Origin: Basidiobolus meristosporus CBS 931.73
Lineage: Eukaryota > Basidiobolomycota > Basidiobolomycetes > Basidiobolales > Basidiobolaceae
DNA length: 54,798 nt
Assembly: GCA_002104905.1 (NCBI GenBank)
Contig: MCFE01000597.1
Span: forward strand, 1 to 54,798
Direction: 5' to 3'
Within the stretch, counting starts at the first letter, position 1. Each line of letters opens with the position of its first letter. The notes beneath the pieces are model-generated. The model saw nothing but the letters and a program-made list of their open reading frames with translations, did no database searches and was not told the DNA's origin. Positions 2,518-52,068 of the stretch are shown here, in pieces. A program made the position numbers and the translations under genes.

Positions 2518-2559
2518 GGATACTTCGATCGTCCTGCCATCAGAGGATTGGTGTGGCCG

Positions 2560-3223: not shown

Positions 3224-3378
3224 GACATAGTGCCAGCCTGTTTTAGTGCTGGATCAATCTGGCACTCTACGGCACTATCTGACACTCTAATTTTTACCAT
3301 TATGCCAGTGGTAGGATACAGTTACTGGTATTTTTACTCAATCTTACTTGTGTTGCTTAGAACAGTGCTTATCTTGCT

Positions 3379-4170: not shown

Positions 4171-4200
4171 TTGAGAAAATACTATTCCAATGAGTAAGGC

Positions 4201-6180: not shown

Positions 6181-6185
6181 CTGCA

Positions 6186-6534
6186 TGTTGTAAGAGTCTT
6201 GGAGATATTGGAAGTGATTGGGAGGACAAGTAGATTATGTGGTTTTCACTTAATGATTTATTGAATGTAAAAGTAGTATTTATACTTTTACCTGGTCTTG
6301 GCATTACATACACATAGAATAGGTTAAGGAAGGTCCCAAGAACATGTGTGCAAAGTTTGGGGCTGTTTGGACAACTTTGAGAATTTTCATGTTCTGGGTA
6401 CCTGGTATTTTGGTGAAAATATTCTAAGTAAATCCCAACAAGGAATTTGGTCAGTATTCTCTAGGATTTGAAGGTGATGATCTAAGTGACTAAGTTAGGT
6501 GAATATTTAGGTGGAAATACAAATTTTTACAACA
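6186..6534 (-). repeat. Solo LTR of copia family (349 bp) with target duplication
   Basis: On the plus strand it starts TGTTGTAAGAGTC and ends TTTTTACAACA. It is flanked by perfect 5-bp direct repeats CTGCA at 6181-6185 and 6535-6539. No primer-binding site or gag adjoins it, so it is a solo LTR left by LTR-LTR recombination. On the minus strand it contains TATAAATA (6277-6284) followed about 15 bp later by AATAAA (6257-6262), the element's promoter and polyadenylation signal. It serves as the reference copy for the other LTRs in the window. Confidence 0.93.
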
Positions 6535-6539
6535 CTGCA

Positions 6540-19133: not shown

Positions 19134-22100
19134 CTATGGCCAGTCACAGATGATGGATTGGCCGTTCGTTTTACATACCGTCCCGGCGGCACAGTGGTTT
19201 TCGTAAAGCTGGCCGTTAGCGCAGATGGTGAACTTGTCAGAGATTCCTGAAAGGGCGCATTCATAGGCACCATTAACACATTTGGCCCCCGTGGGCTCAG
19301 TGGTGGGATTGGAGGTGACGGTGACCGTGGATGGAGCGCAGTTTTCTTTGATAGTTACTGTCTTGACGGGAGCATGAACGGTAACAGTCACTGGCTCGGC
19401 AACCACTGTGACTGTGGGCTGCGAGATGACAGTTGGGACAGCGGTGACCGTGATGGTCTCAGTGTAGGCTGGTTGGTGCTCAACAACATCAATAGTGACG
19501 GTCTTCACAGGCAACTCAGTATTTCTATCAGATCCCCGAGCTGCAGTTGGTACAGCAACTTCAGTACCCGTAGAAACAATAGCTTCCGTGGTGATAGTGG
19601 TGTATTCATTATCACCAGCTGTCTTCACAATCGTACGATATATGGTTTCATCTTGTTGACCGTTGCCGTCATTGGAATGATGTCCATTTGTGGCTACTGA
19701 GGCAGTGTGGGTAGCCTCTGGAGTCTGACTCTCAACAGTAGTGGAACTCTGGTAATCAATGGTTTCTCTAACAGTTTGAGTATATGTGCGCACTTGAGCC
19801 CCTCCGCTACCACTCAAAGATTCAGTAGCGGTGACAAATACGGTATCAGTGTTTACACGCTCCGAAGACTGCCTTTGATGAGTAGCAGGGTTTACGTGAG
19901 TAGAACGACTGGCCTTTGGAGTCTCATTTCCAGCAGCCCTACCGGGTCCGGTAACCTTAGCACTTTGAGTTTCCTTAGTGTAGTAGGCAGAGGAATGACC
20001 TTGAGAGTTACCATTGCTATTGATGGATTCGGTCACAGTGTAGTAAACAGTGTCAGTATCAGTATCAATGCTCTCGTAGTGTCCACTGTTGGAGGGATGC
20101 TCCTTGTGAGCGTCAGAGCTCAAGTGAGCAGAGTGGGTAGCCTTGGGAGATTCACCTCCAGAAGCGCTACCATGTCCGGTAGCCCTGGCACTATGAGTTT
20201 CCTTGGTGGAATGGGCAGAAGAATGACCTTGAGAGTTTCCATTGCCATTGATAGTATCAGTCACAGTGTGATAAACAGTGTCAGTATCAGTTTCAATGCT
20301 CTCGTGGTGTCCACTGCTGGATGGATGCTCGTTGTGAGCGCCAGAGCTCAAGTGAGCAGAGTGGGTAGCCTTGGGAGATTCACTTCCAGAAGCGCTACTG
20401 TGTCCAGTAGCCTTAGCATCTTGAGTTTCCTTAGTGGAGTAGGCAGAGGAATGGCCTCGTGAGTTACCATTACCATTGATAGTATCAGTCACGGTGTAGT
20501 AAACAGTGTCAGTATCAGTATCAATGCTCTCGTAGTGTCCACTGTTGGAGGGATGCTCCTTGTGAGCGCCAGAGCTCAAGTGAGCAGAGTGAGTGGCCTT
20601 GGGAGATTCACTTCCAGAAGCACTACCGTGTCCAGTAGTCCTGGCACTTTGAGTTTCCTCGGTGGAGTAGGCAGAGGAATGACCTTGAGAGTTACCATTA
20701 CCATTGATAGTATCAGTCACGGTGTAGTAAACGGTGTCAGTATCAGTTTCAATGCTCTCGTGGTGTCCACTGCTGGATGGATGCTCGTTGTGAGCGCCAG
20801 AGCTCAAAGGAGCAGAGTGGGTAGCCTTGGGAGATTCACTTCCAGCAGCGCTACCAGTTTCAATGCTCTCGTAGTGTCCACTATTGGAGGGATGCTCGTT
20901 GTGAGCGCCAGAGCTCAAAGGAGCAGAGTGGGTAGCCTTGGGAGATTCACTTCCAGCAGCGCTACCAGTTTCAATGCTCTCGTAGTGTCCACTATTGGAG
21001 GGATGCTCGTTGTGAGCGCCAGAGCTCAAGTGAGCAGAGTGGGTAGCCTTGGGAGATTCACTTCCAGAAGCGCTACCATGTCCGGTAGCCCTGGCACTTT
21101 GAGTTTCCTTGGTGGAGTGGGCAGAAGAATGTCCTTGAGAGTTACCATTACCATTGATAGTATCAGTCACGGTGTAGTAAACGGTGTCAGTATCAGTTTC
21201 AATGCTCTCGTGGTGTCCACTGCTGGATGGATGCTCGTTGTGAGCGCCAGAGCTCAAAGGAGCAGAGTGGGTAGCCTTGGGAGATTCACTTCCGGCAACG
21301 CTACCATGTCCGGTTATTCTGGCACTTTGAGTTTCCTTGGTGGAGTGGGCAGAGGAGTGGCCTTGAGAGTTACCATTACCATTGATAGTATCAGTCACAG
21401 TGTGATAAACAGTGTCAGTATCAGTTTCAATGCTCTCGTAGCGTCCACTGTTGGAGGGGTACTCGTTGTGAGCACTCTGGCTTAATTGGGCGGAGTGGGT
21501 AGCCTTTGGAGACTCGTGTGATGCAGCAGACGCTGGTGCAGTTACCGTTACATCATGAGTAACGGTATGCGTTTCCGTACGGATTGAGTAATGAACCACG
21601 CTTCTCGCGGATTGATGCATTACCGAAGCAGGACTATGGCTACTAAGTGGGTTTCTATTCACTGTTTCATACTTAATAATTGTATCAACAACAGTGGTAA
21701 CGACCGTTTCAGTGGTAACCGGAATGGTTCGTACTTGGGTAGGTTTTTGCGACTCGGCCGACTTGGAAACAATTTGTGGTTCTGTTGACACAGTGATTCC
21801 ATGAGATTCAACGGACCCGGCGGATCTGTGAGCACCTGAAGATTCGGACGGCTTGTGTGACTCCACTGACTGAGTTTCCTTGGGAGACCTGGAGGACTCA
21901 GTTGGCCCGTAAGATTCAGCGGACTTGGTAGATCTATGCGCAGCTGAGGATTCAGAGTGTTTGTGCGACCCGTCAGATTGGCTTTCTTTACGAGACACAG
22001 TGGGCTTGTGAGATTCATCGGATTCGGTAGATCTATGAGTATTGGGGGGTTCATCAGGCTTGCGAGATTCCTTAGGCTTACGAGACTCAACAGATTTGCT

Positions 22101-25100
22101 TTCCATACGGGACTCCGAAGACTCGGTTGGCTTGTGAGACTCAGCTGACTCAGAGGCCTTAGTGGACTTATAAGATTCAACAGACTTGGTAGATATATAA
22201 GACTGAGTGGACTCGGAAGATCTATGAGAAGCTGAAGACTCCATAGATTTGTGAGTAGCTGCTGATTCGCTAGCCTTCTGAGACTCAACCGATTGACGTC
22301 TCTTACGAGACTCGGAAGCCTCAGTTGGCTTGTGAGACTCAACGGGTTCGGTAGATCTATAAGGAGCGGAAGATTCAATGGGCTTGTAAGATCTAACGGA
22401 TTCAGTAGACCTATTAGTGTTAGAGGTTTCGACATGCTTGCGAGAATCAGTTGGCTTCTGGGGCTTCGAAGATTCGGTTGAATGGTGATGTTCAGCAGAC
22501 TCAGTTGATTTGTGCGCAGCCGATGATTCGGAGTGCTTGGGCGTCTCGACCGGTTTGACTTCCTTATGAGACACAGAGGCCTCAGTTGGCTTGTGAGATT
22601 CAACGGATGTAGTAGATCTATGAGTGTTCGAGGATTCAGCTGGCTTGCGAGATTCAACAGACTCGGTAGATCTATGGGCAGCTGATGATTCAGCGTGCTT
22701 GGTCAACTTCGCCGACTTGCTTTCCTTACGAGACTCGGAGGCCTCAGTGGGCTTGCGAGATTCAACGGATTTAGTAGATCTATGAGTGTTCGAGGATTCA
22801 GCAGGCTTGAGAGATTTAACAGACTCGGTAGATCTGTGGGCAGCTGATGATTCAGCGTGCTTGGTCAACTTCGCCGACTTGCTTTGCTTACGAGACTCGG
22901 AGGCCTCAGTAGGCTTGTCTGTCTGAACGGACTCGATGGATCTGTGAGTAGTTGTGGGCTCAACGGGCTTGCGAGACTCCTCAGATTTACTTCCCTTCTG
23001 GGACTCTAAAGATTCGGTAGATCTGTGCGAGGCTGATGACTCAATTGGTTTGCGAGATTCATTGGACTCGGTCGATCTGTGAGTTGCCGTGGATTTAGCA
23101 GATTTCTGAGTTTCCGTATGCGTACGAGACTCAACAGATTTGCCTTCCCTACGGGACTCCGAAGACTCAGCGGACCTGTGAGATTCAACGGACTCAGAGG
23201 CCTTGGTGGACTGGTGAGATTCAGACTCGGTCGATCTGTGAGTTGTCGTGGATTCAGTAGGCTTGCGGGATTCCGTCGGCTTAGGTGACTCAGCAGATTT
23301 GCTTTCTCTGCGGGGCTCCGAAGACTCAGTGGGCTTGTGAGACTCAACGGACTCAGTGGACCCGTGTGCAGCTGATGATTCAGAGTGCTTATGCGTCTCA
23401 ACAGATTTGCCTTCCTTATGGGATTCTGAAGACTTGGTTGGCTTGTGAGATTTAGCTGACTCGGAAGCTCTGTGAGTGCTCGACGCTTCGGCAGACTTTT
23501 GGGATTCTGTAGGCTTACGGGGCTCTACAGATTTGCTTTCCTTATGAGACTCCGAAGGCTCGACTGACTTGTGCGATTCAACAGACTCGGTGTATCTATG
23601 AGAAGCTGTTGATTCCGTTGGTTTGTGAGATTCATCGGACACAGTAGATCTGTGAGTTGTCGTAGATTCAGCAGATTTCTGAGATTCCGTATGCGTACGA
23701 GACTCGACAGATTTGCCTTCCCTACGGGACTCTGAAGACGCAGTGGGCTTGGGAGATTCAACGGACTCAGTAGATTCGTGTGCAGTTGATGATGCAGAGT
23801 GCTTGGGCGTTTCGACCGATTTGGCTTCTTTATGAGACTCAGAGGCGACAGTGGGCTTGTGAGATTCAATGGACTCCATGGATCTTTGAGTGTGAGAAGG
23901 TTCAGCAGGCTTATGTGACTCAGCAGATTTGCCTTCCCTATGGGACTCCGAAGATTCAGTGGGCTTGGGAGATTCAACGGACCCAGTAGATTCGTGTGCA
24001 GTTGATGATGCAGAGTGCTTGGGCGTCTCGACCGACTTGGCTTCCTTATGAGACTCTGAGGACGCAGTGTGCTTGTGAGATTGAATGGACTCTGTGGATC
24101 TGTGAGTGTGAGAAGGTTCAGCTGGCTTGTGCGATTCTGTAGGCTTACGGGGCTCTACAGATTTGCTTTCCTTATGATGCTCCGAAGACTCGGCTGATCT
24201 GTGGGATACAACAGACCCAGTGGAACTGTGCGAGACTGGTGATTCGGTTGGTTTGTGTGATTCATCGGACTCGGTCGATCTGTGGGCTGTTGTGGATTCC
24301 ACAGTCTTGCGGGATTCCGTAGACTTACGTGACTCAGTAGATTTGCTTTCTCTCCGGGTCTCCGAAGACTCAGTGGGCTTGTGAGACTCAACGGACTCAG
24401 TGGACCCGTGTGCAGCTGATGATTCAGAGTGCTTATGCGTCTCAACAGATTTGCCTTCCTTATGGGATTCTGAAGACTTAGTTGGCTTGTGAGATTCAGC
24501 GGACTCGGAAGCTCTGTGAGTGTTCGACGCTTCAGCAGGCTTTTGAGATTCTGTAGGCTTACGGGGCTCTGCGGATTTGCTTTCCTTATGAGACTCCGAA
24601 GACTCGACCGGCTTGAGAGATTCAACAGACTCAGTAGATCTGTGAGTGTTCGACGCTTCAGCTGGCTTTTGGGATTCTGTAGGCTTACGAGGCGCTACAG
24701 ATTGGCTTTCCTTATGGGATTCCGAAGACTTGGTGGGCTTGTGAGATTCAGCGGACTCGGAAGCTCTGTGAGTGTTCGACGCTTCAGTAGGCTTTTGAGA
24801 TTCTGTTGGCTTACGGGGCTCTACAGATTTGCTTTCCTTATGAGACTCCGAAGGCTCGACTGGCTTGTGCGATTCAACAGACTGGGTAGATCTATGAGAG
24901 GCTGGTGATTCAGTTGGTTTGTGAGATTCAACGGACTCAGTAGATATGTGAGTGTTCGAAGGTTCAGCTGACTTGTGCGATTCAGTTGGTTTACGAGGCT
25001 CTGCAGATTTGCTTTCCTGATGGGACTTCGAAGACTCGGCTGATCTGTGGGATGCAACAGAACCAGTGGAACTGTGCGAGACTGATGATTCGGTTGGTTT

Positions 25101-28100
25101 GTGTGATTCATCGGACTCGGTCGATCTGTGGGCTGTCGTGGATTCCACAGTCTTGCGGGATTCCGTAGACTTACGTGACTCAGCAGATTTGCTTTCTCTG
25201 CGGGGCTCCGAAGACTCAGTGGGCTTGTGAGACTCAACGGACTCAGTGGACCCGTGTGCAGCTGATGATTCAGAGTGCTTATGCGTCTCAACAGATTTGC
25301 CTTCCTTATGGGATTCTGAAGACTTGGTTGGCTTGTGAGATTTAGCTGACTCGGAAGCTCTGTGAGTGCTCGACGCTTCAGCAGGCTTTTGAGATTCTGT
25401 AGGCTTACGGGGCTCTACAGATTTGCTTTCCTTAGGAGACTCCGAAGGCTCGACTGACTTGTGCGATTCAACAGACTCGGTGGATCTGTGAGAAGCTGTT
25501 GATTCCGTTGGTTTGTGAGATTCATCGGACACAGTAGATCTGTGAGTTGTCGTAGATTCAGCAGATTTCTGAGATTCCGTATGCGTACGAGACTCGACAG
25601 ATTTGCCTTCCCTACGGGACTCTGAAGACGCAGTGGGCTTGGGAGATTCAACGGACTCAGTAGATTCGTGTGCAGTTGATGATGCAGAGTGCTTGGGCGT
25701 TTCGACCGATTTGGCTTCTTTATGAGACTCAGAGGCGACAGTGGGCTTGTGAGATTCAATGGACTCCATGGATCTTTGAGTGTGAGAAGGTTCAGCAGGC
25801 TTATGTGACTCAGTAGGCTTACGAGGCTCTACGGAGTTGCTTTCCTTATGATGCTCCGAAGACTCGGCTGACCTGTGGGGTACAGCAGACCCAGTGGAAC
25901 TGTGTGAGACTGGTGATTCAGTTGGTTTGTGAGATCTATCAGACTCGGTCGATCTGTGAGTTGTCGAAGATTCAGCAGGCTTGCGGGATTCCGTAGGCTT
26001 ACGTGACTTCGCAGATTTGTCTTCCCTATGGGACTTCGAAGACTCGGTTGGCTTGTGGGAATCAGCGGACTCAGAGGCCTTAGTGGGCTTGTGAGATTCA
26101 ATAGATTCCACAGATCTTGAGGCTAGTGAAGGCTCAGCAGGCTTGTGCGATTCTGTAGGTTTGCGAGGCTCAACAGATTTGCCTTCCCTACGGGACTCCG
26201 ACGACTCAACTGGCTTGTGAGAGGCTGGTGATTCAGTTGGTTTGTGAGATTCATCAGACTTGGTCAATCTGTGAGTGTGAGAAGGTTCAGCTGGCTTGTG
26301 TGATTCTGTAGGCTTACGGGGCTCTACAGATTTGCTTTCCTTATGATGCTCCGAAGACTCGGCTGATCTGTGGGATACAACAGACCCAGTGGAACTGTGC
26401 GAGACTGATGATTCGGTTGGTTTGTGTGATTCATCGGACTCGGTCGATCTGTGGGCTGTCGTGGATTCCACAGTCTTGCGGGATTCCGTAGACTTACGTG
26501 ACTCAGCAGATTTGCTTTCTCTGCGGGGCTCCGAAGACTCAGTGGGCTTGTGAGACTCAACGGACTCAGTGGACCCGTGTGCAGCTGATGATTCAGAGTG
26601 CTTATGCGTCTCAACAGATTTGCCTTCCTTATGGGATTCTGAAGACTTGGTTGGCTTGTGAGATTTAGCTGACTCGGAAGCTCTGTGAGTGTTCGACGCT
26701 TCAGCAGGCTTTTGAGATTCTGTAGGCTTACGGGGCTCTACAGATTTGCTTTCCTTAGGAGACTCCGAAGGCTCGACTGGCCTGTGCGATTCATCAGAAG
26801 CAGTAGATCTATCAGTGTTTGAAGGTTCAGCAGGCTTGTGTGATTCCGTCGGTTCACGAGGCTCTGTAGATTTGCTTTCCTGATGGGACTTCGAAGATCC
26901 GGTTGGCTTGTGAGATTCAACGGGCTCAGTGGATTTGTGTGCAGCTGATGACTCGAAGTGCTTGTGCGACTCAGCCGATTTGCTTTCCTTACGAGGTTCC
27001 GAGGATTCGGTAGATTTGTGAGCAGCTGATGATTCAGTGTGCCTGTGCGTCTCGATCGATTTGCTTTCTTTGTGAGATTTTGATGACTCAGATGGCTTTC
27101 GAGACTCAATGGACCCAGTAGATTTATGTGCAACTGATGACTCTGAGTGCTTGTGCGACTCAACTGATTTGCTTTCCTTGTGAGTCTCCGTCGACTCTGC
27201 TGCCTTGTGGGATTCAACAGACTTGGTAGATCTGTGAGAGGCTGGTGATTCAGTTGGCTTGTGTGCCCCATCGGATCCAGTAGATCTATGAGGGTGCGAG
27301 GGTTCAGCAGGTTTGTGAGATTCCGTAGGCTTAGGAGACTCGACAGATTTGTTTTCCTTGTGAGATTTTGAAGACTCGGTTGGTTTGTGAGATTCAGCTG
27401 ACACAGTAGATCTATGGGTAACTGATGACTCTGAGTGCTTGTGCGACTCGACCGATTTGCTTTCCTTACGAGACTCAGAGGTCTCAGTGGGCTCATGAGA
27501 TTTAACAGACTCGGCAGATCTGTGAGAGGCTGGGGACTCGGATGGTTTGTGAGATTCAGCGGACTCAACGGATCTATGAGTGCTTGAGGATTTAGCAGGT
27601 TTGCGAGTATCGATAGACTTAGGAGACTCAGAGGCCCTAGTGGAACTGCGAGAATCGGCGGATGCGGTAGATCTTAGAGTGCTTGAGGATTCAGTGGGCT
27701 TGTGGGTATCGGTATGCATACCAGACTCGATAGATTTACTGTCATTATGAGGTTCCGAAGATTTCGTTGGCTTGTGGGACTCGACGGACTCAGTAGATCT
27801 GTGAGAGACTGGTGATTCAGTTGGTTTGCGAGATTCCGTAGGCTTACGAGACACCACAGATTTGGTAGACTTGTTTACTGTGCTATTATCCAATGATTCT
27901 GTAGCCTTATGAGATTCCATAGACTTGCTTTGTTCACGGGACTTCGAAGACTCAATGGAGTTAGTAGGCTGCTGAGAGGTTGAGGGTATAACAGACTTGC
28001 TCTCTTTGTGGGAAGCTATTGGAGACTCCGAAGCAACAGTAGGCCTATGGGTTTCAGACCGTTCTGTAGGCTTATGAGATGTAGAAGACTCGGCAGGCTT

Positions 28101-31100
28101 GCGTGGCTCTACAGACTTGGTATCGCGGTGGGTCTGTGATGAGGCGATGCGCTTGTGTGTTTCAACAGTTGCCGAAGATTGATGAGAAACCGAAGTTTCA
28201 GTAGACTTATCAGATTTACTTGATTTGGTGGATTCGCGCACAGTTGAAGATCCTCGTGAATGATTCTTCAAGGTAGACGAGGCAGGCTTGGTAGATGGGC
28301 CAGTAGTGAAGGTATTAGCGTGCTTCTTACACTCAATACCGACAGCAGTGTTCATGCAAACTGAGTTGTCACCACAAGTGCCACTCCCAGTTGCCTTCGA
28401 ATTCTCACAAGTGACATAGTACGGCGAGCTGCCAGGAACGGTGCATCTCTCCTTCTGATCGCAAATGGGGGTGGATGTGCAAGGGTGAACTTGGTACGAG
28501 TGGGTGTTCTTCCCGCAGACCAAGCCCATTGGACATTGCTGCCATTCCCACACATTTCCGTTAGGTCCGGTGGTACAGGTTCGATAGGTGTTCACTCCTC
28601 CTTCAACGCAATGAGTAGAGCCAAGTGAGCAGCTAGCATCAGGAATACTTTCTACCGCCACACAGTTGATATTTTCACCGTCCTGTTCACATACTGTCCC
28701 ATTGTTACAATCATTCTCATACTCCTGTTCTTTGCTCCAGTAGTGGTATCTGTTGGATACTCCAGAGTTGAAGCACTTGGCATCCTTGCGACTACCTCTG
28801 ATATTGCTCGTGGGGTTTGGCTTGGTGCTGGAGGTTGTCGAGGATGAACTAGCAGAGCCCTGTGGGGGCACTCCACACTCCTTGAAAGCACCATTCTGCT
28901 CGATGCAGACTAGGCCTGTGCTGCACTCAGATGGAACCCATTTGCCGAACGAGCACTGACCAAAGTGCTTGGAATCAAGGCACTTGAATGTTCCCTCAGT
29001 GCAAGGCACATTTGAAGGACCAGCTTGCTGGCTACTGGTTGCTGCAGACGACAAAGAGATCTCGGATTGAGTATGCTTCTCCCTAGTTGTCACTGAATGT
29101 TGCTCGATAGATGTCGACGTTGGCTTAGTTTCTGAGCTTGTAGCTGTTGAGGGTTTGACGCTCGGTACTAATACCTGACTTTTAGAAAGTGTTTTCATTG
29201 GCGAAGTGCCTGGTTGGGTGGAAATCCTACTTGAATCATCTTTGGTATCAGCAGTTGACGTAGTCGAACTACTAGATGTATTGCCTCTTGCCGATGCTGA
29301 CTCGGTAGTGGGCGCCTTAGATGAGCTACTAGCACGTTTTTTACACTCGATCCCACTAGCAGTGTTCATACAGATTGAATTGTCACCACAGGTGCCACTT
29401 CCGGTTGCCTTCGAATTCTCGCAAGTGACATAGTACGGCGAGCTGCCAGGAACGGTGCATCTCTCCCTTTGATCGCAAATGGGGGTGGATGTGCAAGGGT
29501 ACACTAGGTACGAGTGGGTGTTCTTCCCGCAGACCAAGCCCATTGGACATTGCTGCCATTCCCACACATTTCCGTTAGGTCCGGTGGTACAGGTGCGATA
29601 GGTGTTCACTCCTCCTTCAACGCAATGGGTAGAGCCGAGGGCACACTTGTCGTCAGGAATGTTGGGCAACGCCACACAGTTGATGTTGTCGCCATCTTGC
29701 TCACATACTGTCCCGTTGTTACAATCGTTCGTGTACTCCTCGCCATTACTCCAGTAGTGGTATCTGTTGGACACTCCCGAGTTGAAGCACTTGGCATTCT
29801 TGCGATTACCTCTGATACTGCTGGTGGGGTTCGGCTTGGTGCTGGAGGTTGTCGAGGATGGACTAGCAGAGCCCTGTGGTGGCACTCCACACTCCTTGAA
29901 AGCACCATTCTGCTCGATGCAGACTAGGCCTGTGCTGCACTCAGATGGAACCCACTTGCCGAACGAGCACTGACCAAAGTGGGTGGAATCAAGGCACTTG
30001 AATGTTCCCTCAGTACAAGGCACGTTGGATGGCTCACCTTGCTTGCTGCTGGTTGCAGTAGATACTGATGATGATGATGTTGATAATGATGTAGGGTTCT
30101 TCGATTGAGTATGCTTTTCGATGGGTGTTGCTGACTGTTGGCCGGTAGACATCGACATTTCTTTGGTTTCTGAGCTTGTAGCAGCTGAAGGTTGGACGCT
30201 GGATGATGTAGTCATACTTTCAGTCAAAGTATTCATTGCCGAGCTGCTGGATGTAGTGTCTCTTGCCGATGCTGACTCGGTAGTATGTGACTTAGATGAG
30301 CTACTAGCACGCTGTTTACACTCGATGCCACTAGCAGTGTTCATACAGACTGAGTTAACACCACAAGTACCGCTCCCGGTTGCCTCCGAATTCTCACAAG
30401 TGACATAGTACGGCGAGCTGCCGGGAACGGTGCATCTCTCCTTCTGATCGCAAATGGGGGTGGATGTGCAAGGGTACACTTGGTACGAATGGGTGTTCTT
30501 CCCGCAGACCAAGCCCATTGGACATTGCTGCCATTCCCACACATTTCCGTTAGGTCCGGTGGTACAGGTGCGATAGGTGTTCACTCCTCCTTCAACGCAA
30601 TGGGTAGAGCCGAGGGCACACTTGTCGTCAGGAATGTTGGGCAACGCCACACAGTTGATGTTGTCGCCATCTTGCTCACATACTGTCCCGTTGTTACAAT
30701 CGTTCGTGTACTCCTCACCATTACTCCAGTAGTGGTATCTGTTGGACACTCCCGAGTTGAAGCACTTGGCATTCTTGCGATTACCTCTGATACTGCTGGT
30801 GGGGTTCGGCTTGGTGCTGGAGGTTGTCGAGGATGGACTAGCAGAGCCCTGTGGTGGCACTCCACACTCCTTGAAAGCACCATTCTGCTCGATGCAGACC
30901 AGTCCTGTGCTGCACTCAGATGGAACCCATTTGCCGAACGAGCACTGACCAAAGTGAGTGGAGTCGAGACACTTGAATGTTCCCTCAGTACAAGGCACGT
31001 TGGATGGCTCACCTTGCTTGCTGCTGGTTGCAGTAGATACTGATGATGATGATGTTGATAATGATGTGGGGTTCTTCGATTGAGTATGCTTTTCGATGGG

Positions 31101-34100
31101 TGTTGCTGACTGTTGGTCGGTAGACATCGACATTTGTTTGGTTTCTGAGCTTGTAGCAGCTGAAGGTTGGACGCTGGATGATGTAGTCAAACTCTCAGTC
31201 AAAGTATTCTTTGCCGAGCTGCTGGATGTAGTGTGTCTTGCCGATGCTGACTCGGTAGTATGTGACTTAGAGGAGCTACTAGCACGCTGTTTACACTCGA
31301 TGCCACTAGCAGTGTTCATACAGACTGAGTTAACACCACAAGTACCGCTCCCGGTTGCCTCCGAATTCTCACAAGTGACATAGTACGGCGAGCTGCCAGG
31401 AACGGTACATCTCTCCTTCTGATCGCAAATGGGGGTGGATGTGCAAGGGTACACTTGGTACGAATGGGTGTTCTTCCCGCAGACCAAGCCCATTGGACAT
31501 TGCTGCCATTCCCACACATTTCCGTTAGGTCCGGTGGTACAGGTGCGATAGGTGTTCACTCCTCCTTCAACGCAATGGGTAGAGCCGAGGGCACACTTGT
31601 CGTCAGGAATGTTGGGCAACGCCACGCAGTTGATGTTGTCGCCATCTTGCTCACATACTGTCCCGTTGTTACAATCGTTCGTGTACTCCTCGCCATTACT
31701 CCAGTAGTGGTATCTGTTGGACACTCCCGAGTTGAAGCACTTGGCATTCTTGCGATTACCTCTGATACTGCTGGTGGGGTTCGGCTTGGTGCTGGAGGTT
31801 GTCGAGGATGGACTAGCAGAGCCCTGTGGTGGCACTCCACACTCCTTGAAAGCACCATTCTGCTCGATGCAGACCAGTCCTGTGCTGCACTCAGATGGAA
31901 CCCATTTGCCGAACGAGCACTGACCAAAGTGAGTGGAATCAAGGCACTTGAATGTTCCCTCAGTACAAGGCACGTTGGATGGCTCACCTTGCTTGCTGCT
32001 GGTTGCAGTAGGTACTGATGATGATGCCGATAATGATGTGGGGTTCTTGGATTGAGTATGCTTTTCGATGGGTGTTACTGACTGTTGTTCGGTAGACTTC
32101 GACATTTGTTTGGTTTGTGAGCTTGTAGAAGCTGAAGGTTGGACGCTGAATGATGTGGTCAAACTCTCAGTCAAAGTATTCTTTGCCGAGCTCTTGGATG
32201 TAGTGTCTCTTGCCGATGCTGACTCGGTAGTGGGCGCCTTAGATGAGCTACTGGCACGTTTTTTACACTCGATCCCACTAGCAGTGTTCATACAGACTGA
32301 ATTGTCACCACAAGTGCCACTCCCGGTTGCCTCCGAATTCTCACAAGTGACATAGTACGGCGAGCTGCCAGGAACGGTGCATCTCTCCTTTTGATCGCAA
32401 ATGGGGGTGGATGTGCAAGGGTACACTTGGTACGAGTGGGTGTTCTTCCCGCAGACCAAGCCCATTGGACATTGCTGCCATTCCCACACATTTCCGTTAG
32501 GTCCGGTGGTACAGGTTCGATAGGTGTTCACTCCTCCTTCAACGCAATGGGTAGAGCCGAGGGCACACTTGTCGTCAGGAATGTTGGGCAACGCCACGCA
32601 GTTGATGTTGTCGCCATCTTGCTCACATACTGTCCCGTTGTTACAATCGTTCGTGTACTCCTCGCCATTACTCCAGTAGTGGTATCTGTTGGACACTCCC
32701 GAGTTGAAGCACTTGGCATTCTTGCGATTACCTCTGATACTGCTGGTGGGGTTCGGCTTGGTGCTGGAGGTTGTCGAGGATGGACTAGCAGAGCCCTGTG
32801 GTGGCACTCCACACTCCTTGAAAGCACCATTCTGCTCGATGCAGACTAGGCCTGTGCTGCACTCAGATGGAACCCACTTGCCGAACGAGCACTGACCAAA
32901 GTGGGTGGAATCAAGGCACTTGAATGTTCCCTCAGTACAAGGCAAGTTTGATGGCTCACCTTGCTTGCTGCTGGTTGCAGTAGATACTGATGATGATGAT
33001 GTTGATAATGATGTGGGGTTCTTCGATTGAGTATGCTTTTCGATTGGTGTTGCTGACTGTTGTTCGGTAGACTTCGAAATTTGTTTGGTTTGTGAGCTTG
33101 TAGAAGCTGAAAGTTGGACGCTGGATGATGTGGTCAAACTCTCAGTCAAAGTATTCTTTGCCGAGCTCTTGGATGTAGTGTCTCTTGCCGATGCTGACTC
33201 GGTAGTATGTGACTTAGATGAGCTACTAGCACGCTGTTTACACTCGATGCCACTAGCAGTATTCATACAGACTGAATTGTCACCACAAGTGCCACTCCCG
33301 GTAGCCTCCGAATTCTCACAAGTGACATAGTACGGCGAGCTGCCAGGAACGGTGCATCTCTCCTTCTGATCGCAAATGGGGGTGGATGTGCAAGGGTACA
33401 CTTGGTACGAGTGGGTGTTCTTCCCGCAGACCAAGCCCATTGGACATTGCTGCCATTCCCACACATTTCCATTAGGTCCGGTGGTACAGGTTCGATAGGT
33501 GTTCACTCCTCCTTCAACGCAATGGGTAGAGCCGAGGGCACACTTGTCGTCAGGAATGTTGGGCAACGCCACACAGTTGATGTTGTCGCCATCTTGCTCA
33601 CATACTGTCCCGTTGTTACAATCGTTCGTGTACTCCTCACCATTACTCCAGTAGTGGTATCTGTTGGATACTCCCGAGTTGAAGCACTTGGCATCCTTGC
33701 GATTACCTCTGATACTGCTGGTGGGGTTCGGCTTGGTGCTGGAGGTTGTCGAGGATGGACTAGCAGAGCCCTGTGGTGGCACTCCACACTCCTTGAAAGC
33801 ACCATTCTGCTCGATGCAGACTAGGCCTGTGCTGCACTCAGATGGAACCCATTTGCCGAACGAGCACTGACCAAAGTGAGTGGAGTCGAGACACTTGAAT
33901 GTTCCCTCAGTACAAGGCACGTTTGATGGCTCACCTTGCTTGCTGCTGGTTGCAGTAGATACTGATGATGATGATGCTGATAATGATGTGGGGTTCTTCG
34001 ATTGAGTATGCTTTTCGATGGGTGTTGCTGACTGTTGGTCGGTAGACATCGACATTTGTTTGGTTTCTGAGCTTGTAGCAGCTGAAGGTTGGACGCTGGA

Positions 34101-35024
34101 TGATGTAGTCATACTTTCAGTCAAAGTATTCTTTGCCGAGCTCTTGGATGTAGTGTCTCTTGCCGATGCTGACTCGGTAGTGGGTGACTTAGAGGAGCTA
34201 CTAGCACGCTGTTTACACTCGATCCCACTAGCAGTGTTCATACAGACTGAGTTAACACCACAAGTACCGCTCCCGGTTGCCTCCGAATTCTCACAAGTGA
34301 CATAGTACGGCGAGCCGCCAGGAACGGTGCATCTCTCCTTCTGATCGCAAATGGGGGTGGATGTGCAAGGGTACACTTGGTACGAGTGGGTGTTCTTCCC
34401 GCAGACCAAGCCCATTGGACATTGCTGCCATTCCCACACATTTCCGTTAGGTCCGGTGGTACAGGTGCGATAGGTGTTCACTCCTCCTTCAACGCAATGG
34501 GTAGAGCCGAGGGCACACTTGTCGTCAGGAATGTTGGGCAACGCCACGCAGTTGATGTTGTCGCCATCTTGCTCACATACTGTCCCGTTGTTACAATCGT
34601 TCGTGTACTCCTCACCATTACTCCAGTAGTGGTATCTGTTGGATACTCCCGAGTTGAAGCACTTGGCATCCTTGCGATTACCTCTGATACTGCTGGTAGG
34701 GTTAGGCTTGGTGCTGGAGACGATGGAGGAGGATCTTTTTGGTGGCTCACCACACTCTTTGAACACACCATTCTCTGCGATGCAAACCAGGCCTGGTGCG
34801 CACTCTGATGCATCCCACTTCCCAAATACGCACTCTCCAAAATGCTTGGAGTCTAAACATGTGAAGGTACCTTCCGTACACTCGGTGGTGCTTGCAGCGC
34901 GTTTCACCAACCGGCGGTGATTGGCGGTATCATTTACGGAATCCAAAACCTTCCTGGGCTGCGGATACGCAGCAATCCCGGCCGCGATGGCAAAGACTGC
35001 TAATGCTTTCGTAGCGAGACGCAT
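19134..35024 (-). CDS. Giant secreted chitin-binding-like protein with CBM19-like modules
   Basis: One uninterrupted frame of 5296 codons. The start is the ATG at 35022-35024 (MRLATKALAVF), 42 bp below a TATAAATA box; the frame extends nine codons upstream only from a TTG. Order: signal peptide about 1-19; propeptide ending in Kex2-type KR (41-42); seven units of four Cys-rich modules (49-2232, 22 Cys per unit); a stalk of Ser/Thr/Glu/His/Lys/Pro/Arg repeats (about 2233-4426); 76-residue repeats (about 4502-5031); a Thr/Val-rich segment; and a final six-Cys module (5248-5296). The modules resemble CBM19, the chitin-binding domain at the C-terminus of yeast chitinase Cts1 (pattern C-x-G-x3-C ... 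GxW ... C-x2-G-x2-C). No catalytic domain and no GPI-type tail is seen. An NGT sequon occurs in every unit. The likely role is a cell-wall or extracellular tether, adhesin or mucin binding chitin through both ends; that is inference. The long antisense frames are by-products of the repeats. Confidence 0.9.
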   Translation of the reverse strand: MRLATKALAVFAIAAGIAAYPQPRKVLDSVNDTANHRRLVKRAASTTECTEGTFTCLDSKHFGECVFGKWDASECAPGLVCIAENGVFKECGEPPKRSSSIVSSTKPNPTSSIRGNRKDAKCFNSGVSNRYHYWSNGEEYTNDCNNGTVCEQDGDNINCVALPNIPDDKCALGSTHCVEGGVNTYRTCTTGPNGNVWEWQQCPMGLVCGKNTHSYQVYPCTSTPICDQKERCTVPGGSPYYVTCENSEATGSGTCGVNSVCMNTASGIECKQRASSSSKSPTTESASARDTTSKSSAKNTLTESMTTSSSVQPSAATSSETKQMSMSTDQQSATPIEKHTQSKNPTSLSASSSSVSTATSSKQGEPSNVPCTEGTFKCLDSTHFGQCSFGKWVPSECSTGLVCIEQNGAFKECGVPPQGSASPSSTTSSTKPNPTSSIRGNRKDAKCFNSGVSNRYHYWSNGEEYTNDCNNGTVCEQDGDNINCVALPNIPDDKCALGSTHCVEGGVNTYRTCTTGPNGNVWEWQQCPMGLVCGKNTHSYQVYPCTSTPICDQKERCTVPGSSPYYVTCENSEATGSGTCGDNSVCMNTASGIECKQRASSSSKSHTTESASARDTTSKSSAKNTLTESLTTSSSVQLSASTSSQTKQISKSTEQQSATPIEKHTQSKNPTSLSTSSSSVSTATSSKQGEPSNLPCTEGTFKCLDSTHFGQCSFGKWVPSECSTGLVCIEQNGAFKECGVPPQGSASPSSTTSSTKPNPTSSIRGNRKNAKCFNSGVSNRYHYWSNGEEYTNDCNNGTVCEQDGDNINCVALPNIPDDKCALGSTHCVEGGVNTYRTCTTGPNGNVWEWQQCPMGLVCGKNTHSYQVYPCTSTPICDQKERCTVPGSSPYYVTCENSEATGSGTCGDNSVCMNTASGIECKKRASSSSKAPTTESASARDTTSKSSAKNTLTESLTTSFSVQPSASTSSQTKQMSKSTEQQSVTPIEKHTQSKNPTSLSASSSVPTATSSKQGEPSNVPCTEGTFKCLDSTHFGQCSFGKWVPSECSTGLVCIEQNGAFKECGVPPQGSASPSSTTSSTKPNPTSSIRGNRKNAKCFNSGVSNRYHYWSNGEEYTNDCNNGTVCEQDGDNINCVALPNIPDDKCALGSTHCVEGGVNTYRTCTTGPNGNVWEWQQCPMGLVCGKNTHSYQVYPCTSTPICDQKERCTVPGSSPYYVTCENSEATGSGTCGVNSVCMNTASGIECKQRASSSSKSHTTESASARHTTSSSSAKNTLTESLTTSSSVQPSAATSSETKQMSMSTDQQSATPIEKHTQSKNPTSLSTSSSSVSTATSSKQGEPSNVPCTEGTFKCLDSTHFGQCSFGKWVPSECSTGLVCIEQNGAFKECGVPPQGSASPSSTTSSTKPNPTSSIRGNRKNAKCFNSGVSNRYHYWSNGEEYTNDCNNGTVCEQDGDNINCVALPNIPDDKCALGSTHCVEGGVNTYRTCTTGPNGNVWEWQQCPMGLVCGKNTHSYQVYPCTSTPICDQKERCTVPGSSPYYVTCENSEATGSGTCGVNSVCMNTASGIECKQRASSSSKSHTTESASARDTTSSSSAMNTLTESMTTSSSVQPSAATSSETKEMSMSTGQQSATPIEKHTQSKNPTSLSTSSSSVSTATSSKQGEPSNVPCTEGTFKCLDSTHFGQCSFGKWVPSECSTGLVCIEQNGAFKECGVPPQGSASPSSTTSSTKPNPTSSIRGNRKNAKCFNSGVSNRYHYWSNGEEYTNDCNNGTVCEQDGDNINCVALPNIPDDKCALGSTHCVEGGVNTYRTCTTGPNGNVWEWQQCPMGLVCGKNTHSYLVYPCTSTPICDQRERCTVPGSSPYYVTCENSKATGSGTCGDNSICMNTASGIECKKRASSSSKAPTTESASARGNTSSSSTTSTADTKDDSSRISTQPGTSPMKTLSKSQVLVPSVKPSTATSSETKPTSTSIEQHSVTTREKHTQSEISLSSAATSSQQAGPSNVPCTEGTFKCLDSKHFGQCSFGKWVPSECSTGLVCIEQNGAFKECGVPPQGSASSSSTTSSTKPNPTSNIRGSRKDAKCFNSGVSNRYHYWSKEQEYENDCNNGTVCEQDGENINCVAVESIPDASCSLGSTHCVEGGVNTYRTCTTGPNGNVWEWQQCPMGLVCGKNTHSYQVHPCTSTPICDQKERCTVPGSSPYYVTCENSKATGSGTCGDNSVCMNTAVGIECKKHANTFTTGPSTKPASSTLKNHSRGSSTVRESTKSSKSDKSTETSVSHQSSATVETHKRIASSQTHRDTKSVEPRKPAESSTSHKPTERSETHRPTVASESPIASHKESKSVIPSTSQQPTNSIESSKSREQSKSMESHKATESLDNSTVNKSTKSVVSRKPTESRKPTESPVSHRSTESVESHKPTKSSEPHNDSKSIESGMHTDTHKPTESSSTLRSTASADSRSSTRASESPKSIDTRKPAKSSSTHRSVESAESHKPSESPASHRSAESVKSHEPTETSESRKESKSVESHKHSESSVTHRSTVSAESHKPTESSKSHKENKSVESPKPTESHKPAEPSHPHRSTGSDGAHKPTESPASHRSTKSVESHKAAESTETHKESKSVESHKHSESSVAHKSTGSIESRKPSESSKSHKESKSIETHRHTESSAAHKSTESSEPRKESKSAESHKHFESSAAHKSTEPVESHKPTGSSKSHQESKSTEPREPTESHKPAEPSNTDRSTASDESHRPVEPSESPKESKSVEPRKPTESQKPAEASNTHRASESAKSHKPTKSSESHKEGKSVETHKHSESSAAHGSTESVESHKPTESSEPRRESKSAESRKSTESRKTVESTTAHRSTESDESHKPTESSVSHSSTGSVVSHRSAESSEHHKESKSVEPRKPTESHKPAEPSHTHRLTKSDESHKPTESPASHKPVESSESRREGKSVEPRKPTESHKPAEPSLASRSVESIESHKPTKASESADSHKPTESSKSHREDKSAKSRKPTESRKPAESSTTHRSTESDRSHKPTESPVSHSSTGSAVPHRSAESSEHHKESNSVEPRKPTESHKPAEPSHTQRSMESIESHKPTVASESHKEAKSVETPKHSASSTAHESTESVESPKPTASSESRREGKSVESRTHTESQKSAESTTTHRSTVSDESHKPTESTASHRSTESVESHKSVEPSESPKESKSVEPRKPTESQKPAEASSTHRASESAKSHKPTKSSESHKEGKSVETHKHSESSAAHGSTESVESHKPTESSEPRRESKSAESRKSTESRKTVESTTAHRSTESDESHKPTESSVSHSSTGSVASHRSAESSKSHQESKSAEPRKPTESHKSAEPSNTHISTESVESHKPTESPASHRSTQSVESHKPVEPSESHKESKSVEPRKPTESQKPTEASNTHRASESAESHKPTKSSESHKESQSVAPRKPTESQKPAEASNTHRSTESVESLKPVESSESHKESKSAEPRKPTESQKPAEASNTHRASESAESHKPTKSSESHKEGKSVETHKHSESSAAHGSTESVESHKPTESSETRRESKSTESRKSTESRKTVESTTAHRSTESDESHKPTESPVSHSSTGSVVSHRSAESSEHHKESKSVEPRKPTESHKPAEPSHTHRSTESIQSHKHTASSESHKEAKSVETPKHSASSTAHESTGSVESPKPTESSESHREGKSAESHKPAEPSHTQRSMESIESHKPTVASESHKEAKSVETPKHSASSTAHESTESVESPKPTASSESRREGKSVESRTHTESQKSAESTTTHRSTVSDESHKPTESTASHRYTESVESHKSVEPSESHKESKSVEPRKPTESQKSAEASSTHRASESAKSHKPTKSSESHKEGKSVETHKHSESSAAHGSTESVESHKPTESSEPRRESKSAESPKPTESRKPTESTTTHRSTESESHQSTKASESVESHRSAESSESRREGKSVESRTHTETQKSAKSTATHRSTESNESRKPIESSASHRSTESLESQKGSKSEESRKPVEPTTTHRSIESVQTDKPTEASESRKQSKSAKLTKHAESSAAHRSTESVKSLKPAESSNTHRSTKSVESRKPTEASESRKESKSAKLTKHAESSAAHRSTESVESRKPAESSNTHRSTTSVESHKPTEASVSHKEVKPVETPKHSESSAAHKSTESAEHHHSTESSKPQKPTDSRKHVETSNTNRSTESVRSYKPIESSAPYRSTEPVESHKPTEASESRKRRQSVESQKASESAATHKSMESSASHRSSESTQSYISTKSVESYKSTKASESAESHKPTESSESRMESKSVESRKPKESRKPDEPPNTHRSTESDESHKPTVSRKESQSDGSHKHSESSAAHRSTKSAESYGPTESSRSPKETQSVESHKPSESSGAHRSAGSVESHGITVSTEPQIVSKSAESQKPTQVRTIPVTTETVVTTVVDTIIKYETVNRNPLSSHSPASVMHQSARSVVHYSIRTETHTVTHDVTVTAPASAASHESPKATHSAQLSQSAHNEYPSNSGRYESIETDTDTVYHTVTDTINGNGNSQGHSSAHSTKETQSARITGHGSVAGSESPKATHSAPLSSGAHNEHPSSSGHHESIETDTDTVYYTVTDTINGNGNSQGHSSAHSTKETQSARATGHGSASGSESPKATHSAHLSSGAHNEHPSNSGHYESIETGSAAGSESPKATHSAPLSSGAHNEHPSNSGHYESIETGSAAGSESPKATHSAPLSSGAHNEHPSSSGHHESIETDTDTVYYTVTDTINGNGNSQGHSSAYSTEETQSARTTGHGSASGSESPKATHSAHLSSGAHKEHPSNSGHYESIDTDTDTVYYTVTDTINGNGNSRGHSSAYSTKETQDAKATGHSSASGSESPKATHSAHLSSGAHNEHPSSSGHHESIETDTDTVYHTVTDTINGNGNSQGHSSAHSTKETHSARATGHGSASGGESPKATHSAHLSSDAHKEHPSNSGHYESIDTDTDTVYYTVTESINSNGNSQGHSSAYYTKETQSAKVTGPGRAAGNETPKASRSTHVNPATHQRQSSERVNTDTVFVTATESLSGSGGAQVRTYTQTVRETIDYQSSTTVESQTPEATHTASVATNGHHSNDGNGQQDETIYRTIVKTAGDNEYTTITTEAIVSTGTEVAVPTAARGSDRNTELPVKTVTIDVVEHQPAYTETITVTAVPTVISQPTVTVVAEPVTVTVHAPVKTVTIKENCAPSTVTVTSNPTTEPTGAKCVNGAYECALSGISDKFTICANGQLYENHCAAGTVCKTNGQSIICDWP
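19137..19283 (-). other. C-terminal CBM19-like module
   Basis: It encodes residues 5248-5296 with six cysteines: KCVNGAYEC, then FTICANGQ, HCAAGTVC and IICDWP. It aligns well with the second module of each N-terminal unit (KCFNSG...NDCNNGTVC...INC), which lacks two of the six cysteines. The protein ends three residues after the last Cys. Confidence 0.75.
19930..21520 (-). repeat. Tandem 228-bp repeats (76 residues) with two 111-bp short units
   Basis: Eight units each start near SESPKATHSA. Six are full length (76 residues, containing DTDTVYYTVTDTINGNGNSQ). The third and fourth in protein order are 37 residues, lacking the same central 39. A ninth, strongly diverged unit (NETPKASRSTH) follows below 19930. 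The summed unit lengths equal the span of the array. Confidence 0.9.
21745..28328 (-). repeat. Stalk-coding low-complexity repeats (Ser/Thr/Glu/His/Lys/Pro)
   Basis: About 6.6 kb of degenerate short repeats of roughly ten residues, such as SHKPTESSE, SHKESKSVE, PRKPTESHKPAEPS and THRSTES, with no Cys, no Trp and very few aromatic residues. Longer blocks (beginning ETHKHSESSAAHGSTESVES) recur near 26.6, 25.3, 24.4 and 23.4 kb, showing higher-order duplication. The strong mix of Lys/Arg/His with Glu makes it a polyampholyte rather than a plain Ser/Thr mucin. Heavy O-glycosylation is expected from the Ser/Thr content but not shown. Confidence 0.9.
28329..34880 (-). repeat. Seven tandem 975-bp units coding four CBM19-like modules each
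   Basis: A fixed landmark recurs at 28753, 29767, 30742, 31717, 32689, 33664 and 34639, giving spacings of 1014, 975, 975, 972, 975 and 975. Each unit encodes module A (CTEGTFKC...FGKW...GLVC, six Cys), B (KCFNSG...NNGTVC, four Cys), C (CALGSTHCVEGG...WEWQQCPMGLVC, six Cys), D (CDQKERCTVPG...CMNTASGIEC, six Cys) and a Ser/Thr linker. Central units are almost identical at DNA level. The first and last units in protein order are the most different, and the linker before the seventh is 39 bp longer. Confidence 0.95.
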
Positions 35025-35065: not shown

Positions 35066-35073
35066 TATTTATA
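35066..35073 (-). promoter_or_regulatory. TATA box of the giant gene
   Basis: The minus strand reads TATAAATA 41 bp upstream of the ATG ending at 35024. It supports that ATG rather than the upstream TTG, and a very short leader. It is the same octamer, at the same distance, as in front of the dehydrogenase gene. Confidence 0.7.
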
Positions 35074-43089: not shown

Positions 43090-46000
43090 GTTCATACTGA
43101 CTAGTCCTAATTTTGACCTAAGATATTCAAACTTGTCTCTAGCTAATGGTTTGGTAAATATGTCTGCAATCATTTCATCTGAAGGACAGTAAACTAAGCC
43201 AACTAAGTTATACTCAATAGCCTCACATATGAGCTGATGTCTAATATCTATGTGCTTAGTTCTTGCATGAGAAGTTGGATTTCTACCTGATTGTATGAAT
43301 TCTTATTATCTTGAAATAAAGTAATAGGTGCTTTTTGACATAGGCCTAAATCTGTAAAAAGCTTTCTTAACCACATTGCTTCCTTTGTTTCTTCACAGGC
43401 TGCCATATACTCTGCCTCTGTGGCAGAAAGTGCTACAGTTGGTTGCTTTCTTGAATTCCATGAAATTGCTCTTTACAGTAAAGAAAGGTGTAACCTGTGG
43501 TGGATCTTCTGTCTTCCAAATTTTGTCACCAATCAGTATCAGAGTATCCCACAACATCCTGTTCTGAATCCTTATAATTGTATCTTAAGCAGATATCAGC
43601 AGTTCCTTTTAGGTATCTAAAAATCCACTTAACTGATGCAATATGATCAGATCCATAATTCTGATTATGTTGGCTGACAACTCCCACTGAATATGAGACA
43701 TCTGGACGTGTTCTAAGCTTGATATACATTATACTGCAAGTCATAGATTGACAAGGAAAGTCAGGGCTTTCAGATGGCACCAAGCTCTCTTGATTTGGTT
43801 GAGTTTTGACCAAGTTGAGATTTGTCTCCATTGGGGTAGCTGCCGGTTTACAGTCTTCCATTTTGTACTTCTTTAGTATATCTTGCATATACTTGGACTG
43901 GCTTAGGGTAATAGTCTGGGTACTTCTGTCTGTGGAGAACTTAATCCCTAAGTAGTGATTGAGTTCTCCTAGATTGGACATCTTGAACTCCTTAGATAGG
44001 CTGGATTTAGTCTCTTCCAATGTTTCTAGGTCATTGGCAGCTATTATAAGCTCATCCACACATAGAGCTAATAGAACTGAATTTGCTCTATCTGGCTTGT
44101 AGTATACACTACAGTCAGCATTACTCCTTTTGAAACGCAAAGATTCCAAATAAGAATCTGTCTTGCAATTCCAGGCTATTGGTGATTATTTGAGACCATA
44201 TAGAGACTTTTTAAGCTTAAAGATCAAATGGGGGTTATCTTGGTCAACAAATCCATCAGGCTGGTCCATATACATGTCTCATCAAGTTTTCCATTCAAAA
44301 ATGCGGCTTTTACATCTATTTGATGAGTAAAAAACTTATATTTGGCTGTAATAGCCAATATTAATCTGATGGAATTAAACTTGGCTACCAGTGCAATGGT
44401 CTGAGTATAGTCAAGTCCTTTTGTTTGAGAGTATCCTTTGGCCACAAGTCTTGCTTTGTATCTTTCAACTGTACCATCAGCCTTGCGTTTTGTCTGGGAG
44501 ACCCATCAGCAACCAATTGAATTTTGGTTGATTGGTAATTTGACAAATTCACAAGTTTGATTCTCCATTAAGGCCTGATATTGCTCAGTCATTGCTGATC
44601 TCCAGAACTTTGTCTGAGGGCTATTTACGGCCTCTTTTACAGTCTGGGGCTCATCAATATGGACTGAACAGGCATAGGCTAAGTTTGTGCCCTCATTGAT
44701 ATAGTAATTTGGGCTATTTCTTGTCCAACTGGATCTCTGGGCATTTAATACTGGATTGATCACTTCTAGGATATTCCTAGGCACTGATTCTGGCTGAACC
44801 ACAGCTGTAGAGTCCTCTGGAGTAAAAAAGGACTCATTGTTTTGCACTGATTCAATCCTGACAATTGGTGGACTTGAGATCAGATTTTTGTCATCATTTG
44901 ATCTCATTTTTTGTGAAAATCTTGAATTTTCATCAAACAACACATTGTTGGACTTGATTAGCTTCTTTGCTTTGGCATTGTAGAGTCTTTATGCTTTACC
45001 CTCATTGCAGTAACTCAAAAATAAGCATTTTACACTTTTTGGCTCAAATTTTGACTGATTTCTGGGCAGTTTCTTGGCATCTGCTGTACACCCATATATT
45101 CTTAGATGTTCAGCACTTGGTCTGTGCCCATACTATGCTTCAAATGAAGTAGCATCACAAAGTACACTGTTATAACTCCTATTTTTAAGGTGTACAGCAG
45201 TGGCAACTGATTCTGCCCAAAATCATAGGATAATTTCTGATTATGGATCATGGATCTTGCCATATCAGTTATTGATCTGTTAGCACATTCTGCTACTCCA
45301 TTTTGCTGTTGGGAGTATGGTACAGTAGTCTCTTGTTTTATCCCATGAATTTTGCAGAAGTGGATGAAAAGTTTTAAGGTATATTCCAAAGCATATTTTC
45401 TTGATTTACTCACAAGTTTCTCTATCCACCATGGCTCTAAGCTCCATGAACTTAGACAGAGCTTCTTCCTTTCTCTCCATGAAGTAAATCTACATGTATC
45501 TTGTATAATCATCAATAAAAGTGATTAAATATTTCATCCCACCTGAGTATAAAGTTAGCATAGGTCCACATAGATCTGACTGAATTAGTTGTAATTATTT
45601 CTTAGTTTTGATTAACCCAGAGCTCTTGAACAATTGTCTGGCTTGTTTCCTATATATGCAGGCCTCACAGTGCTCTAAATTAGCTGAGGGATCAATTTTT
45701 ACTCAAGAAATTAGCTGATCTTTGATCATTTTGCACAAATAATCAAAATTGATGTGCCTTAATCTCCAGTGCCAAATCTTTGGTGTTTCTTCATTTGAGT
45801 CACTGATATTGGCTTCCAAATATGATGGAATATAAGTCATCTTGTATATATTCTGATCTCTGATACTCAAAGCAATATGGGTACCATTTTGATCAGTGAT
45901 CTTGAATCCAGAATTGTCAAAGCTGAATTAAGTCCTTCTCCAGTAGCCTTGCTTACTGATAGTAGGTTCTGAGCAATTTCTGGTACATGGAGTACTTCTT

Positions 46001-52063: not shown

Positions 52064-52068
52064 CAGGC

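Follow-up and report, generated by a model that had tools for sequence, protein, structure and literature searches.

A giant repeat-stalk protein of Basidiobolus meristosporus and the genomic family that shares its chitin-binding-type tail

The DNA analysed (the window) is a stretch of 54,798 nucleotides from Basidiobolus meristosporus CBS 931.73 (contig MCFE01000597.1, assembly GCA_002104905.1), the minus strand of which carries one open reading frame (ORF) for a protein of 5,296 aa with chitin-binding-type modules at both ends and a very long repeat stalk between them. An earlier reading, made from the letters alone (the sequence-only reading), had described the frame, the modules and the stalk. 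The main new result is that the protein is not alone: dozens of other frames in the genome terminate in its C-terminal (tail) module.

Results

The gene and the encoded protein

The ORF (19134..35024, stop codon included) runs from the ATG at 35024 to the stop at 19134 and contains no internal stop codon and no N; this feature and all others of the gene given below lie on the minus strand. Given that 100 simulated versions of this DNA (order-1 Markov) contained no ORF longer than 330 codons, a chance frame is ruled out, and the single uninterrupted frame claimed by the sequence-only reading stands. The GC content of the gene is approximately 0.50, and most of the window lies above the 26-37% given for Harpellales genomes in PMC5954228. 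A TATA-box-like TATAAATA starts 49 bp upstream of the ATG (35066..35073) and AATAAA lies 81 nt downstream of the stop codon. Judged by eye, residues 1 to approximately 20 (MRLATKALAVFAIAAGIAAY; 34965..35024) form a signal-peptide-like start, followed by a Kex2-type site, K41-R42 (34899..34904), both as previously described, and on these features the protein appears to be secreted. No GPI (glycosylphosphatidylinositol) attachment signal was seen by eye at the C-terminus (...SIICDWP), which lacks a hydrophobic tail, and Pfam gave no glycoside hydrolase (GH) family match at E<=10 in residues 1-270, 360-600, 1990-2245, 2240-4450 and 4451-5296, the remainder (271-359 and 601-1989) being linkers and near-copies of scanned units. 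A catalytic role, such as that of a GH18 chitinase, is rejected since no catalytic domain was found in the scanned parts, and the sequence-only reading was thus right, over these parts and the C-terminus, that enzyme domain and GPI tail are absent.

Seven units, each of four Cys modules in the order A-B-C-D, form the N-terminal array. Unit 1 (A1-B1-C1-D1, residues 49-270; 34215..34880) and unit 2 (A2-D2, residues 371-595; 33240..33914) are followed by units 3 (696-920; 32265..32939), 4 (1020-1244; 31293..31967), 5 (1345-1569; 30318..30992) and 6 (1670-1894; 29343..30017), and by unit 7 (2008-2232; 28329..29003), which is 92% identical to unit 2. Units 2-6 are spaced approximately 325 residues apart and the linkers are Ser/Thr-rich. 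The 161 Cys of the protein are accounted for by 22 in each unit (6+4+6+6) and seven in the C-terminal part, and each of the 29 Trp falls within a module (one in every A, one in every B, two in every C, none in D and one in the tail), with none in the repeats. The Pfam CFC match in two of the units was weak and was set aside.

Approximately 3,000 repeat residues separate this array from the tail module. A charged Ser/Glu/Lys/His/Thr stalk with a period of 9/18 residues (positions 2245-4420 of the protein; 21765..28292), delimited by composition and autocorrelation, gives way to 76-residue repeats with TDTVYYTVTDT motifs (residues 4491-5020; 19965..21554), identified from the sequence and by autocorrelation, and a Thr/Val-rich segment (residues 5120-5248; 19281..19667) with a CAPSTVTVT motif, in a form common to many paralogues, precedes the tail. 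Ser and Thr together make up 36% of residues 2245-4420 and 32% of residues 4421-5215, and no Pfam match was found in residues 2240-4450; composition and periods therefore bear out the long, charged, low-complexity stalk described by the sequence-only reading. At 0.35 nm per residue for an extended chain, the fully extended stalk would measure approximately 1 micrometre. Pfam also gave PRAP in the C-terminal piece, at E 0.027 and under its cut-off, and this match was set aside.

The tail module

The tail module (residues 5249-5296; 19137..19280), which ends CDWP, was characterised by profiles and a structure model. When scanned alone it scored 20.9 bits against CBM_14 (PF01607; cut-off 22.1) and 15.4 bits against CBM_19 (PF03427; cut-off 20.1), below the cut-off in both cases, and within the 846-residue C-terminal piece it scored 13.1 bits (E 0.11) against CBM_14 and had no CBM_19 match. 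All 16 aligned family tails match both CBM_14 and CBM_19 at E<=1, with best E values of 6.5e-5 and 6.8e-7 respectively. We take the two Pfam models to belong to one clan. By its profile scores the tail is an intermediate between CBM14 and CBM19, so that the C-terminal CBM19-like module of the sequence-only reading holds as to its chitin-binding type and not as to its exact family.

The AlphaFold2 model of the tail, for which the input alignment consisted of five window modules, has five short strands and a pLDDT (predicted local distance difference test) of 86-89 over model residues 31-75. Foldseek ranks the CBM14 of human chitotriosidase first for this model, at E 0.47, and no match reaches E<=0.001. 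In VIA-align, 9 of 11 rows are chitin-binding or CBM14-type, including 8in3 and 8in6, which we presume to be so, and the remaining two are other folds, Fusexin1 and Avr1/SIX4; Z does not exceed 4.2 throughout, and the resemblance to the Avr4 fold seen there is likewise weak. In a search of the tail profile against solved structures, chitinase and chitotriosidase chains (E 0.038-0.29) and a chitin-binding beak protein (E 0.31) stand directly above isocitrate dehydrogenase chains (E approximately 1). Each single score is weak; the collective pattern of the matches suggests that the predicted fold is best matched by chitin-binding CBM14.

An insect chitinase CBM14 that the tail profile matched (E 0.038) also ends in CDW and one further residue. 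The structural alignment, known by its extent and not residue by residue, reaches model residue 75 and chitotriosidase chain residue 466, so that Trp5295 (19140..19142) would fall on Trp465 and is likely to be its counterpart. According to the available text of PMC5459812, Trp465 was the residue whose substitution affected chitin binding by chitotriosidase most, and the available text of PMC4844120 reports that a construct lacking Trp465 and Asn466 lost binding.

Identity of the N-terminal modules

The sequence-only reading took all 28 N-terminal modules to be CBM19-like, which applies most clearly to module A. In each of the three scanned units (of seven), the single CBM_19 stretch lies in A and exceeds the cut-off of 20.1 bits (20.5, 21.6 and 21.6 bits in units 1, 2 and 7), and modules B, C and D have no CBM_19 match of their own. 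A profile was made from 24 distinct tail sequences, one being the window's own and 23 coming from elsewhere in the genome, with a search pattern that demanded C[DN]W, and the count of 24 is thus not evidence for the Trp. Against this profile B2 scored 38.8, A2 31.6, C2 11.3 and D2 10.2 bits, and shuffles with Cys fixed reached the real score in 0/1000 cases for A2, none of the 998 scored for B2, 1/1000 for C2 and 5/1000 for D2. Taken together, scores and shuffles indicate that both A and B are related to the tail, and that the relation of C and D to it is probable but weak.

Elsewhere in the genome a GH18 protein (locus L014, contig C483) terminates in a module that shares 40% identity with A across 47 residues; this end module itself has no Pfam CBM_19 match at E<=1. 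Residues 1-270 gave no match at E<=1 to solved structures by sequence, and for A2 the matches were all to CBM1-type cellulose-binding and luciferase chains (E 0.021 at best), which were set aside. Of the checks that the sequence-only reading had proposed, the Pfam search thus placed A over the CBM_19 cut-off and left B, C, D and the tail below it, and structure prediction gave a usable, weakly CBM14-like model for the tail, whereas that of the four-module unit (mean pLDDT 44) is too poor for use. Chitin-binding-type modules at both ends, as that reading had claimed, nevertheless follow from the CBM_19 match in A and from the nearness of the tail to CBM_14 and CBM_19.

Comparison of the modules of unit 7 with those of units 2-6 gave 0.046-0.052 non-synonymous (dN) and 0.30-0.37 synonymous (dS) substitutions per site, a dN/dS of 0.13-0.16, and B-D of unit 1 compared with unit 7 gave a dN of 0.061 and a dS of 0.43; between A1 and A2-A7 dN is 0.14-0.16 and dS is saturated or undefined, hence no ratio was taken. 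These values point to purifying selection on the modules. At the protein level units 2-6 share 97-99% identity in their modules, which indicates that the array has recently expanded or been homogenised, and the number of its units may vary among strains.

A family of tail-bearing proteins

The genome (89.0 Mb in 1,311 contigs) was searched with the tail; 93 matches were listed at E<=0.01, ten of these on the window contig. Outside that contig the tail is found at 45 places at E<=3.2e-9, although the presence of near-identical pairs on separate contigs (e.g. C805/C824 and C11/C646) means that the distinct genes number fewer than 45. Of the 45, 18 lie in frames of 1,000 codons or more (1,221-7,374) and six in frames of 3,000 or more, the longest having 7,374. 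Among the best 19 loci with 3' ends, selected for their similarity to a query that itself ends CDWP, there are 16 distinct tails and 19/19 end in C[DN]W, or this and one further residue, at the stop; the weaker matches L014 and L023 end otherwise.

The N-terminal parts are exchangeable. Twelve upstream ends were tied to tails by a position matching the frame length, not by reading the frames through: six have Cys arrays, two another Cys domain, one a GH16 domain (E 4.8e-6, over the Pfam cut-off) and two no Cys head, and one is a contig edge. A signal-peptide-like start was recognised by eye in nine of the 12, and two (L055 and L058) start within a domain, which would fit an intron upstream. 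CBM_19 exceeds its cut-off in the Cys-array paralogues L050 and L054 and does not in L051, L052, L055 and L060. At the small end of the family, a 97-aa member consists of a signal-peptide-like start and the tail with little else, and at 24.9 bits is over the CBM_19 cut-off. In the best N-terminal relative, on contig C691, the signal-peptide-like start is accompanied by an A-like module and by a different Cys module in ten copies, together with a Ser/Thr stretch and a charged stalk that closely resembles that of the window protein. The tail of this relative is in a separate downstream frame of 151 codons, so that head and tail are not one frame. The window protein, unusual as it is, belongs as one of the large members to a sizeable family of stalk proteins that are probably chitin-anchored.

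Protein database searches with window residues 1-2300 and with residues 470-577 of a 577-aa paralogue returned no match at E<=0.001 and in both cases did not return the query's own protein either, and are thus uninformative on other fungi. In the titles of open-licence CBM19 papers and the available text of PMC6784888, PMC12387763, PMC4746824 and PMC8042737, CBM19 arrays on a stalk are not described.

Three further observations concern family members. Contigs C824 and C805 (L028, L029, L036, L038 and L059) each have six tail-bearing places over approximately 35 kb with similar frames, as if they were two copies or haplotypes of one cluster. An N-terminal Cys domain of the type FPFxYPxxC...AGKKCWPxY, grouped by eye, recurs in L025, L043, L038, L028, L056 and L059, and has no Pfam match over the cut-off in L025, L056 and L059. 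On contig C387, short frames of 171-297 codons hold a series of weaker tail matches, which may represent clustered genes for small CBM19-type proteins.

Discussion

Given that a constant C-terminus stands behind varying N-termini, the tail is most readily interpreted as an anchor or address, and given that it is chitin-binding in type and secreted by a fungus, its simplest target would be the chitin of the fungus's own wall. It is therefore suggested, with about an even chance of being correct, that the window encodes a giant adhesin-like surface protein in which a chitin-binding module replaces the GPI anchor. We infer its anchoring, orientation, binding, target and function from sequence, as follows. 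Once secreted, the protein would dock non-covalently on wall chitin through its C-terminal CBM14/CBM19-type module, and the approximately 3,000 presumably disordered, Ser/Thr-rich residues would carry the N-terminus through the wall and past it. The 28 tandem Cys modules, seven of them CBM19-type, would form an outward multivalent head acting by avidity on chitin or a related glycan of another surface. In Basidiobolus the likeliest such surface would be arthropod cuticle, met by the sticky capilliconidia; this lead is drawn because the tips of the capilliconidia are adhesive and attach to insect exoskeletons, as the available text of PMC10964425 has it.

The sequence-only reading had suggested a cross-linker or tether. 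Insect peritrophins and intestinal mucins bind chitin in this manner within the peritrophic matrix, and a cross-linker in the fungal wall or spore coat, with both ends on the chitin of one wall, would be in keeping with the chitin-binding-type modules at each end and with the Ser/Thr-rich repeats between them. However, in paralogues the tail stands behind a GH16 domain or a different Cys domain, or without any Cys head, so that a second chitin-binding end is not family-wide, and some 3,000 stalk residues would be more than a short-range link requires. Since the tail is shared across varied N-termini, an anchor with a displayed head is favoured over a symmetrical cross-linker, which is considered unlikely, although it is the strongest of the alternatives. 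A component of shed mucilage or glue, or a shield of chitin against host chitinases in the manner of Avr4, is more doubtful again: the composition is mucin-like, the tail fold weakly resembles Avr4, which guards chitin against chitinases (available text of PMC6128652), and adhesive material is reported on Basidiobolaceae capilliconidia (available text of PMC13370150 and PMC10964425), but a shield would need neither a stalk of thousands of residues nor exchangeable N-terminal enzymes. It is also conceivable that the gene is a relic or an unexpressed repeat expansion without function, given that the near-identity of units 2-6 is a sign of recent expansion or homogenisation. This is very improbable, as the modules appear to be under purifying selection, the 15.9-kb frame is intact, and promoter-like and polyA-like signals are present.

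The adhesin-like protein suggested here can be set beside several known systems. Fungal GPI adhesins (Als, Flo) have a signal peptide, an N-terminal binding domain, a Ser/Thr repeat stalk and C-terminal wall attachment, with varied heads. The signal-peptide-like start, the Ser/Thr-rich tandem-repeat stalk (periods 9/18 and 76) and the varying heads of the family recall this plan, whereas the window protein shows no GPI signal, ends in a CBM14/CBM19-type module, bears a Cys-module array as its head and is very large; it would thus work like a GPI adhesin and yet lacks the anchor that defines that family. Insect intestinal mucins and peritrophins have several chitin-binding modules parted by mucin-like stretches, as does the window protein, which differs in being fungal, in its approximately 3,000 repeat residues and in the single tail shared by a family with other N-termini. 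With CBM14 (peritrophin-A, tachycitin, chitotriosidase, Avr4) the tail shares six Cys and the terminal Trp, and its predicted fold may, on weak scores, be the distorted beta-sandwich of these chitin-binding modules, although it falls just short of the CBM_14 cut-off when scanned alone and matches CBM19 too. CBM19 is known from fungal GH18 chitinases; the likeness lies in A, which exceeds the CBM_19 cut-off and resembles the end module of the genomic GH18 protein. Unlike those chitinases, the window protein has no catalytic domain in the scanned parts and carries A seven times, alternating in its array with modules of three further types. The chitinases of Basidiobolomycetes have comparatively many chitin-binding domains, according to the available text of PMC8042737. 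Fasciclin adhesion proteins are described in the available text of PMC5954228 as a surface family expanded in Harpellales and Basidiobolus meristosporus, which are insect- or amphibian-associated, and the present genome has 68 fasciclin matches; the likeness is that of an expanded surface adhesion family, the domain being a different one, and "CBM" does not occur in the available text of that paper.

A wider proposal, more tentative than that of the adhesin-like protein itself, is that the family constitutes a GPI-independent system of surface display, in which dozens of genes combine one C-terminal chitin-docking module and stalks of up to several thousand residues with swapped displayed parts (tandem chitin-binding arrays, a glucanase, other Cys domains), the window gene supplying a multivalent chitin-binding head that would glue spores or hyphae to arthropod cuticle. 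If so, the protein would be a molecular candidate for arthropod attachment by an early-diverging fungus, fungi would have a second route, beside GPI, for building long adhesins, and anchoring across the family should hinge on one residue, Trp5295 and its counterparts. The small fungal chitin-docking tail would also be a possible reagent.

Surroundings of the gene and other observations

Transposable elements flank the gene, namely a DDE transposase fragment (3382-3852), a Copia-type reverse transcriptase (RVT_2; 43529-44149), an integrase core (48290-48805) and a Ty3-type gag and pol (51183-54433). An intronless gene for a GFO/IDH/MocA oxidoreductase of 375 aa lies at 1393-2517, and a plus-strand frame of 154 codons at 287-748 has a hydrophobic start, several Cys and no Pfam match at E<=0.1. 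Elsewhere in the genome, L046 holds a ribosomal DNA unit bearing 5.8S at 1000-1990, in which the sequence soon becomes, by eye, unlike 18S and 28S on either side of the internal transcribed spacer region. The 28S primer Ba1, one of a pair named in PMC7913143 as specific to the B. ranarum group, had no match in the genome, which would speak against Basidiobolus unless the primer sequence used was inexact or 28S is missing from the assembly. At least 77 matches to non-ribosomal peptide synthetase condensation domains were found at E<=1e-10, many of them within long uninterrupted frames.
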